DNA of 42,337 bases from a virus: positions 1-42,337 of IMG/VR virus record IMGVR_UViG_3300038738_000016. One strand, 5' to 3'. The position numbers and the translations under genes are program-made. The notes under the pieces are model-generated. The model had not been told where the DNA came from. It did not search any database and saw only the letters and a list, made by a program, of their open reading frames with translations. Numbering within the stretch: the stretch's first letter is position 1; every line of letters begins with the position of its first letter. Shown here in pieces: positions 29,894-31,593 of the stretch.

Positions 29894-29905
29894 AATGAAC
29901 CCTCC

Positions 29906-29934
29906 TTGTTTTTGCGCCTCCAGAAATGTACAAT
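29906..29934 (+). promoter_or_regulatory. Plus-strand promoter of putative short RNA 2
   Basis: TTGTTT, 17 bp, TACAAT fits a sigma-A promoter reading on the plus strand, against the early operon. Expected start near 29941. A hairpin terminator follows at 29963, so the transcript would be roughly 50-55 nt. The -35 lies over the ribosome site of the 160-residue gene. Confidence 0.5.
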
Positions 29935-29940
29935 AGAGGC

Positions 29941-29994
29941 AATCAATATGTGTTTTGTTTTGGACTCAGCGTTGCCGCGCTGGGTCTTTTACTT
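29941..29994 (+). ncRNA. Putative 50-55 nt antisense RNA 2
   Basis: Predicted unit from TSS near 29941 to the T-run after GACTCAGCG/CGCTGGGTC (9-bp stem, 6-nt loop, 29963-29986, then TTTTACTTTT). No open reading frame of note. It is complementary to the 3' end and stop codon of the 40-residue zinc-ribbon gene and to the leader of the 160-residue gene. The same layout occurs at 30317-30378. Prediction from sequence only. Confidence 0.42.
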
Positions 29995-30111
29995 TTCATC
30001 CGCACAATCTTCACATGTTCTGGGGTACCCAGGTTCTGCAAAATCGTCCATATACGTGCCGCATACTTGACATAGCAGACCAGATAGAATCATTTCAGCT
30101 ACTTCTCCCAA
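29989..30111 (-). CDS. 40-residue zinc-ribbon peptide
   Basis: A short frame starts at TTG 30111 with GGAGG 9 nt upstream (GTG 30120 abuts the site). It encodes MGEVAEMILSGLLCQVCGTYM and then DDFAEPGYPRTCEDCADEK. The two CxxC pairs 16 residues apart form a small zinc ribbon. Peptides of this type (GEVAEMILEGxLCxxCG...GYPRTCxDC) are common in early regions of Firmicutes phages; function unknown. Its start overlaps the stop of an upstream frame, and its stop lies in the terminator stem of the plus-strand RNA. Confidence 0.72.
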   Translation of the reverse strand: MGEVAEMILSGLLCQVCGTYMDDFAEPGYPRTCEDCADEK

Positions 30112-30330
30112 TCCAAACACCCTCCTTCCGTTTGGTCACGAGGCCGCCGACAGCCCAACCTCTCTGCCAGCCGTTGCATTTCCTTGAATGCTCCACGCTT
30201 TGGCCTCGCTTATGTAGACCTGTCTCATCAGTGCCGGACGGTCATCCCCGGCAGACCAGGGAATCCCCTGGTTTCGACTAGTTGCACGCGTTTTCCCATG
30301 CGGGTATAATTGGATTGAAATCAATTCCAA
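30099..30330 (-). pseudogene. Possible frameshifted small early gene
   Basis: Two overlapping frames together look like one protein. Frame A (30136-30330) reads MRQVYISEAKAWSIQG and then becomes unconvincing. Frame B, shifted by one base, reads AFKEMQRLAERLGCRRPRDQ and stops at 30099, 12 nt inside the zinc-ribbon gene start. The switch point lies near 30190-30205. Helical SEAKAW...AFKEMQRLAERLG would be a normal continuous phage helix. A one-base indel (mutation or sequencing error) or a programmed shift would explain it. Frame B alone gives a 26-residue peptide from an internal ATG. Confidence 0.45.
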
Positions 30331-30541
30331 TGCTGTTTGCTGAATGGCCGTCCTGCACGACGGTCATTTTGCATTTTCGGCCCTGGTGTGCGGCTGCAAT
30401 CTCCTCTTCCAGCTCAGCGATCTCTGCCTCGATCCACCAGTCCCATGTGCCGTCCGTGTGACAGCTGCGACGCATCTGCCGATAAATGATTTTCAAATCT
30501 TCAATCCTTTGGCGAGCTGCTCGGAAGCCGTATCTCCTCAC
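30278..30541 (-). CDS. Small helical early protein
   Basis: This 87-residue protein begins at GTG 30541, overlapping the upstream stop as GTGA, so translation is coupled. It is basic and helical at first (FRAARQRIEDLKIIYRQMRRSC), then acidic (DWWIEAEIAELEEEIAAAHQG), then CKMTVVQDGHS. No known motif. The 3' 90 bp are covered on the other strand by a promoter and hairpin of a putative antisense RNA. Confidence 0.65.
   Translation of the reverse strand: MRRYGFRAARQRIEDLKIIYRQMRRSCHTDGTWDWWIEAEIAELEEEIAAAHQGRKCKMTVVQDGHSANSIGIDFNPIIPAWENACN
30282..30310 (+). promoter_or_regulatory. Plus-strand promoter of putative short RNA 1
   Basis: TTGCAC, 17 bp, TATAAT: a near-consensus sigma-A promoter pointing on the plus strand inside the minus-strand early operon, at the 3' end of the 87-residue gene. 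No plus-strand gene follows; instead a terminator-like hairpin lies about 27 bp after the expected start. Confidence 0.65.
30317..30378 (+). ncRNA. Putative 55-60 nt antisense RNA 1
   Basis: Predicted from TSS near 30317 to the T-rich tail of the hairpin ATGGCCGTC/GACGGTCAT (9 bp, one G-U, 6-nt loop, 30344-30367, then TTTGCATTTT). It is antisense to codons 55-75 of the 87-residue gene. It shares layout and T4-gap-T4 tail with the unit at 29941-29994. No plus-strand coding capacity. Sequence prediction only. Confidence 0.5.
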
Positions 30542-31484: not shown

Positions 31485-31593
31485 GGTATTTTAAATACCC
31501 AACAATTCAAAAAAATAATTAGGGCATACTTAAATAAAGGTATTGACGATACCCCTTCTATTACTTATACTGGTAACAGGTATTAAAAATACC
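31485..31593. promoter_or_regulatory. Operators O1-O3 in the early control region
   Basis: Three 15-bp inverted repeats: GGTATTTTAAATACC (31485-31499), GGTATTGACGATACC (31539-31553) and GGTATTAAAAATACC (31579-31593). All keep GGTAT and ATACC half sites. Two more copies lie at 31843-31857 and 31862-31876 beside the repressor promoter. They are most likely binding sites of the ImmR-like repressor and/or the Cro-like protein. Confidence 0.8.
31543..31571 (+). promoter_or_regulatory. Plus-strand promoter antisense to the Cro-like gene
   Basis: TTGACG, 17 bp, TATACT is a strong sigma-A match reading on the plus strand. Operator O2 covers its -35 and O3 lies just past the start. Its transcript would run antisense through the Cro-like gene (31601-31801) and into the repressor gene 31910, like the establishment promoter of lambda. 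Confidence 0.62.

Follow-up and report, generated by a model that had tools for sequence, protein, structure and literature searches.

Two plus-strand units, each made of a sigma-A promoter followed by an intrinsic terminator, face the minus-strand early operon in the viral DNA analyzed here, a stretch of 42,337 nucleotides that is called the window. Each unit is probably a small-RNA gene placed head-on in the early operon, and its product is proposed to be a cis-antisense RNA that works like the OOP RNA of phage lambda. A probability of about 0.6 is given to this reading, which draws on the analogy with lambda. Since comparable units occupy equivalent positions in dozens of Bacilli phages that are only distantly related, it is very likely that they encode two antisense RNAs. 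A hammerhead ribozyme and a conserved three-way-junction RNA, both missed in the first-pass annotation of this DNA, were found between the two units on the other strand.

Two promoter-terminator units opposite the early operon

The early operon of this prophage is on the minus strand, with its promoter at 31862-31834 (TTGACG-17-TATAAT). Both plus-strand units sit in the operon region that extends from an 87-aa gene (30541-30278) to a 160-aa gene (29893-29411). The 87-aa gene (PHROG 31314) has homologs in the relatives L006, L049-L052, L055, and L065, and its 3' end overlaps unit 2. An early gene of 40-43 aa with a Zn-ribbon-like CxxC...CxxC pattern (29989-30111, minus strand) is located between the three-way-junction RNA and unit 1. 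The 160-aa gene encodes a low-complexity protein; DUF2800 and then an Enc34 ssDNA-binding protein were identified downstream of it by Pfam. A separate strong promoter on the plus strand (31543-31571, TTGACG-17-TATACT) crosses the cro-like gene toward the repressor gene, which is the position of lambda's pRE.

The promoter of unit 1 covers 29906-29934, with TTGTTT (29906-29911), a spacer of 17, and TACAAT (29929-29934). The TTG of its -35 is the complement of CAAGGAGG, the ribosome-binding site of the 160-aa gene. The 9-10-bp hairpin (29963-29986) starts 28 nt after the -10, and the terminator (29963-29996) reads GACTCAGCG-TTGCCG-CGCTGGGTC followed by TTTTACTTTT. With the start placed 7 nt after the -10, the predicted RNA 1 is about 55 nt long (29941-29996), and its computed fold contains a U-rich 5' segment, the hairpin, and a U tail. 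Inverted repeats lie over the -10 or the spacer of unit 1 promoters, for example at 29916-29941 in the window, and vary between phages (GCCTCC/GGAGGC, CAAGC/GCTTG, CTTG/CAAG); they may serve as operators or form hairpins in the leader of the sense transcript.

The promoter of unit 2 (30282-30310) is within the 3' end of the 87-aa gene and is composed of TTGCAC (30282-30287), a spacer of 17, and TATAAT (30305-30310). The hairpin (30343-30368) follows the -10 after 32 nt, and the terminator (30343-30378) reads AATGGCCGTC-CTGCAC-GACGGTCATT and then TTGCATTTTC. The predicted RNA 2, from its estimated start and its computed fold, is about 62 nt long (30317-30378).

The coordinates and the layout of the two units had been given correctly in the first-pass annotation, and they form the only such pair on the plus strand of the 42 kb. 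Its statement that no plus-strand gene exists there also held, as no credible one was found at either unit. A tiny peptide in unit 1 (ATGTGTTTTG...) was rejected; its reading frame continues across the terminator, no ribosome-binding site precedes it, and it is not conserved in L050. The length of 50-60 nt that had been suggested for each RNA agrees with the predicted 55-62 nt. Each RNA had further been described as antisense to the end of a small early gene. This applies to RNA 2, which lies opposite the 3' end of the 87-aa gene. It does not apply to RNA 1, most of which lies opposite the 95-nt leader of the 160-aa gene and which touches the stop codon of the 43-aa gene with its T-tail alone.

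A combined finder was applied, in which a sigma-A weight matrix (an approximation made for this analysis) was joined to a hairpin-plus-T score, with a promoter score of at least 8.2, a terminator score of at least 30, and a distance of 12-60 nt from the -10 to the stem. Generic promoter and terminator scans alone gave no excess over shuffles in the window (13 vs 10.4; 21 vs 17.9). The combined finder returned exactly two units on the plus strand of the window, units 1 and 2, and one on the minus strand at 16138-16052, far from the early operon. Eight whole-window shuffles searched on both strands yielded 0, 0, 0, 0, 0, 0, 0, and 1 combined units. Unit 1 had already been scored when the thresholds were fixed; the case therefore depends on the comparisons with relatives and controls, which were run at identical thresholds.

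Recurrence of the units in diverged phages

Among 285 kb of 37 diverged phage loci, 32 antisense units and 0 sense units were found, and one shuffle of each locus gave 0. Loci that were picked solely by the three-way-junction RNA or the hammerhead contained 29 antisense units and 1 sense unit. Of the 17 genome loci, each 3 kb long, 15 contained at least one unit and 7 contained two. Random phage contigs, used as the control, gave 1 unit in 260 kb. When the window and the relatives were pooled, 63 antisense units were obtained, although many relatives are close kin and these counts are not counts of independent events. The promoter spacer was 17-18 nt in 60 of the 63, and the distance from the -10 to the stem was 18-36 nt with a median of 27. 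The 63 units contained 51 distinct hairpins and 60 distinct 5' segments. The promoter hexamers, the spacing, and the pairing persist across relatives, whereas the letters of the spacer, the 5' segment, and the hairpin change. These scans bear out the earlier proposal of a family with a shared design, and the alignment of homologous phages that had been suggested as its check shows promoter, spacing, and hairpin kept jointly where the relatives are otherwise diverged. In the genome loci, the typical upstream unit is TTGTCC-17/18-TGnTATTCT with GCCGTCTG-TTGCGAG-CAGGCGGT, and the typical downstream unit is TTGATT-17-TACGAT with GACTCAGCG-...-CGCTGGGTC. No relatives were returned when genome contigs were searched with a 77-aa protein or when viral contigs were searched with the 87-aa protein.

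Unit 1 was compared through the 160-aa gene, which has 37 relatives in IMG/VR; the 130 nt before the start codon were analyzed in 37 upstream regions, the window included. A T-tailed hairpin scored above shuffles on the antisense strand in 20 of the 37 regions (p 0.016-0.033 each, near the floor of the test) and on the sense strand in 1 of the 37. Within the 20 hairpin-bearing regions, a promoter with p<0.05 was present between the start codon and the hairpin on the antisense strand in 14 and on the sense strand in 0, and the -10 was 21-28 nt from the hairpin in all 20. The remaining 17 relatives have no significant terminator at this position, and five of the 17 bear a unit elsewhere. The promoter TTGTTT-17-TACAAT/TAAAAT is retained in L048-L052, L054, and L110. 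Other relatives have other sigma-A-like promoters at this place (TTGCTT-18-TATAAT, TGATATAAT, TGATAAAAT, TTGATT-17-TACGAT). The hairpin arms belong to about nine sequence types with no relation to each other (GACTCAGCG, GCAGTCG, GTCTCACT, GCTCATG, GCTGAC, CTCACTG, GTCTGATG, GTCCGATG, GACTCTGCG), and the gene that precedes the 160-aa gene varies from phage to phage.

Similarly, unit 2 keeps its design with different letters. Its promoter is TTGCTC-17-TATAAT in L006, L055, L065, and L103, and TTGTCC-18-TAGGAT in L049-L052, L111, and L113; these promoters reach p 0.003-0.03 against shuffles. In L006, L055, and L065, the hairpin is ATGGCCGTC-CTGCCC-GACGGCCAT, and the amino acids encoded at the -35 are unlike those of the window. 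An unrelated but paired hairpin, GGTCACTG-TTGCGAG-CAGTGGCC, takes its place in L049-L052. Some motifs in the predicted RNAs recur at the level of subgroups, such as CTGTTGCGAGCAG in unit 2.

The hairpin of unit 2 (the upstream unit) also forms the last codons of small genes in at least five protein families (the L097 type, the L024 type, the L099 type, L107, and the 87-aa family), which are not joined by blastp once the tail is removed. Four of the five families share C-terminal tails resembling TACSxQTA, whereas a different frame of the same DNA, CTGCTCGCAACAG, is used in the 87-aa family (L049, L111, L113) and gives ATARNSD. Because the hairpin is read in different frames in unrelated genes, selection appears to act on the element and not on the protein. 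No clearer sign of selection on the element was seen than this use of its DNA.

Proposed function and competing explanations

The host sigma-A RNA polymerase would start near 29941 or 30317 and would halt about 55-62 nt further on at the intrinsic terminator, a step that is strongly supported by conservation. The predicted RNAs would be perfectly complementary to the early mRNA. RNA 2 would pair with the 3' end of the 87-aa message, and RNA 1 with the leader that immediately precedes the ribosome-binding site of the 160-aa gene. Pairing would most likely give a duplex that is cut by RNase III, as with lambda OOP. This would limit leaky early messages in the lysogen and perhaps also those of a superinfecting sibling phage, and the level of these early genes would be set in this way until full early transcription outruns the antisense RNA.

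In lambda, the pO-oop-tO RNA is antisense to the end of cII and leads to RNase III-dependent decay of the cII message (PMC5869508; PMC12197685). The units resemble it in that each has its own promoter against the early operon and an intrinsic terminator, giving a predicted RNA under about 100 nt. Like OOP, unit 2 also overlaps a small early gene at its end, shortly before the next gene begins. The lambda pO-oop-tO unit was itself picked out by the same finder at the same thresholds. The loop of tO, TTGCCG, is identical to the loop of unit 1, and the hairpin arms differ. Lambda has one such unit, whereas two per phage are found here, opposite other genes and in Bacilli hosts, and they are separated by the hammerhead and three-way-junction locus. 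No sequence homology to lambda oop is shown, and the neighboring genes, by their PHROGs, are not cII. Several observations are counted against the OOP-like reading. RNA 1 ends short of the Shine-Dalgarno sequence of the 160-aa gene, the genes next to the units belong to PHROGs of no known function, and no LexA-type operator CGAACNNNNGTTCG with up to 2 mismatches is present near 29900-30400, unlike at lambda pO. LexA control of the units was rejected, as no box was found.

The candidate functions given by the first-pass annotation fared differently: a role as an immunity or lysis-lysogeny antisense RNA fits, and a type I antitoxin fits poorly. Bacillus prophages encode type I toxin-antitoxin antisense RNAs, for example txpA/RatA and bsrG/SR4. 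These are likewise head-on antisense RNAs over the 3' end of a small prophage gene and are linked to RNase III; the RNAs predicted here are shorter and have no hydrophobic toxin peptide opposite them. The type I antitoxin was rejected because no small hydrophobic toxin ORF is opposite either unit, the neighbors being a Zn-ribbon protein, a soluble 87-aa protein, and the 160-aa low-complexity protein. Since neither a LexA box nor an opposing toxin gene was found, the family is named only as working like OOP. Phage antisense RNAs that act in lysogeny or immunity also include P22 sar and P1/P4/P7 C4 (PMC12197685). Those RNAs target antirepressor genes or come from leader processing, and no such gene is opposite the units.

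Other explanations were weighed against the same data. In the main rival, the head-on promoters would matter and not the RNAs, with short convergent transcription lowering early transcription or setting up nearby replication initiation, as with lambda pO versus pR; pO activity lowers pR transcription, and the loss of pO harms replication (PMC3985674). The location of unit 1 just upstream of the ssDNA-binding/exonuclease gene block and the wide variation of the RNA sequences beside a constant promoter and terminator agree with this idea. It is considered unlikely, as a strong terminator after about 55 nt limits collision, and an origin is not suggested by two units per operon or by the units away from the 160-aa gene in L057, L058, L068, L075, and L083. 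In another alternative, the RNAs would act in trans, and the U-rich 5' segment, the hairpin, and the U tail would make a small RNA that either functions as a decoy or pairs with host messages or other phage messages. Predicted RNAs of about 50-60 nt with a free 5' segment and a terminator hairpin do resemble small regulatory RNAs, and the subgroup motifs such as the one in unit 2 point the same way. A fixed host target should hold its seed, yet 60 distinct 5' segments occur in 63 units, which favors a cis target, whose complement co-varies automatically. The terminator loop of unit 1 is moreover inverted between the close relatives L062 and L063 (TGGCAG vs CTGCCA), so the strand of the loop seems unimportant. 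Trans action is accordingly judged distinctly improbable.

It might also be argued that the hairpins act in the sense early mRNA as 3'-end or inter-gene structures and that the promoter-like strings are by-products of ribosome-binding sites and codons. The hairpins form on the sense strand too, and CTCC, the complement of the Shine-Dalgarno GGAG, is found shortly before the -35 in 25 of the 63 units, so the TTG of the -35 often overlaps the complement of CAAGGAGG. The T-runs are on the antisense side only (20 vs 1), the -10 hexamers are retained where codons and spacers differ, and antisense units far outnumber sense units at the same thresholds; this explanation is therefore very hard to sustain. 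Accidental promoter- and terminator-like strings in AT-rich phage DNA would explain why generic consensus scans show no excess over shuffles. They would not explain 63 antisense units versus 1 sense unit over a background of about 1 per 260 kb, and they are scarcely credible. As a general account, chance is already refuted by the scans of relatives and of the independently chosen loci.

OOP-type antisense RNAs are known chiefly from lambdoid phages. The open-access literature was searched, and no antisense small-RNA pair in the early operons of Bacilli phages or Bacillus prophages was found described. If Bacilli prophages have a paired and widespread OOP-like version, this would show that phages generally use small-RNA genes placed head-on in their early operons, and many natural variants of the paired units are available for testing this strategy.

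The hammerhead and three-way-junction locus between the units

A predicted type II hammerhead ribozyme (30279-30214, minus strand) directly follows the stop codon of the 87-aa gene. It matches Rfam RF02276 (Hammerhead_II) with 46.2 bits, above the curated gathering threshold of 37, and an E value of 1.8e-6. The core CUGAUGA and GAAA, the cut site GUC, and the pseudoknot GACC/GGUC are all present, and the computed fold displays an NUH cut site, closed stems I and III, and an open stem II. A pseudoknot between loop and tail has been described for type II hammerheads (PMC3088659). The cut is predicted to fall after GUC, between 30254 and 30253. The element differs from the Rfam family in that it leads directly into a three-way-junction RNA that is absent from Rfam.

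This three-way-junction RNA (30134-30215, minus strand) is directly 3' of the hammerhead and consists of P1 (GCGAGGC/GCCUCGU), a variable P2, and P3 with the loop AGAGGUUGGG. In an alignment of 19 sequences, 96% of the cells pair and 10 pairs are changed on both sides, which is reached by 0 of 500 shuffles; this alignment was fitted to the model, and a smaller seed alignment shows the same covariation. At E<=1e-4, the model found the RNA in 28 of the 399 Bacilli genomes searched, and E values below 1e-8 were reached in about 17 of these; the weakest matches appear to be another RNA. It is present in many Bacilli prophages, in Brevibacillus phage Emery, and in two Brevibacillus plasmids. Neither plus-strand RNA covers 30134-30279, and a role for them as ribozyme regulators was rejected.

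Among the 17 strong genome loci (L097-L113), inspection by eye placed a hammerhead directly 5' of the three-way-junction RNA in 8 and a tRNA T-arm-like hairpin, reading GGAGGTTCGAACCTCC or similar, in 9. All 17 inspected loci thus have one or the other directly before the same RNA, which gives a clear context for natural hammerheads and makes the purpose of phage hammerheads directly testable. When the T-arm-like elements of the phage relatives were scanned with ARAGORN, no standard tRNA was identified. Rfam gave no hammerhead match in Emery, L003, L004, and L006; by eye, Emery has the core and L006 has a variant that carries two inserted hairpins. Most simply, the hammerhead and the T-arm-like element would both release the 5' end of either the three-way-junction RNA or the message that follows it. 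In the window, as its motif suggests, the hammerhead between the two antisense targets should split the 87-aa message from a downstream message that starts with the three-way-junction RNA.

It is possible, and is proposed only tentatively, that all these elements make up one RNA control locus common in temperate phages of Bacilli, with two antisense genes and a three-way-junction RNA that is released by a ribozyme or a tRNA-like element. The cut between the targets would allow the two halves to be controlled separately, and silencing in the lysogen would be specific to the phage type. No composite of a hammerhead and a three-way-junction RNA was found in the open-access literature searched, and the RNA pair and its locus appear to be undescribed.

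Variants of the upstream element were also observed. The hammerheads at L006:4262-4350, at L024:7982-8080, and, immediately before the three-way-junction RNA, in L106 have two additional hairpins that separate CUGANGA from stem II. The insert strand can pair with the catalytic strand or with its own partner, possibly as a bistable switch. A non-hammerhead motif, (A)CGCNGGCUU..CCUGCGYG-long hairpin-GGAGGUUCGAACCUCC, takes this place in L049-L052, L055, L065, L085, L086, L099-L102, L107, L109-L111, and L113. It is not in Rfam where tested, and it could be another ribozyme or a substrate of RNase P/Z. Additional tRNA-like domains with acceptor-like ends and long inserts are found 5' of the three-way-junction RNA in L085, L107, and L109.

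Three of the weakest matches of the three-way-junction model (L114-L116), which are in Bacilli chromosomes, are the reverse complement of Rfam BsrC (RF01410). They are on the opposite strand to BsrC, score weakly (about 41 bits), and are not shown to be phage; they may be a different RNA from the three-way-junction RNA. These matches hint that BsrC may have been modelled on the wrong strand, or that it may have a structured antisense partner.
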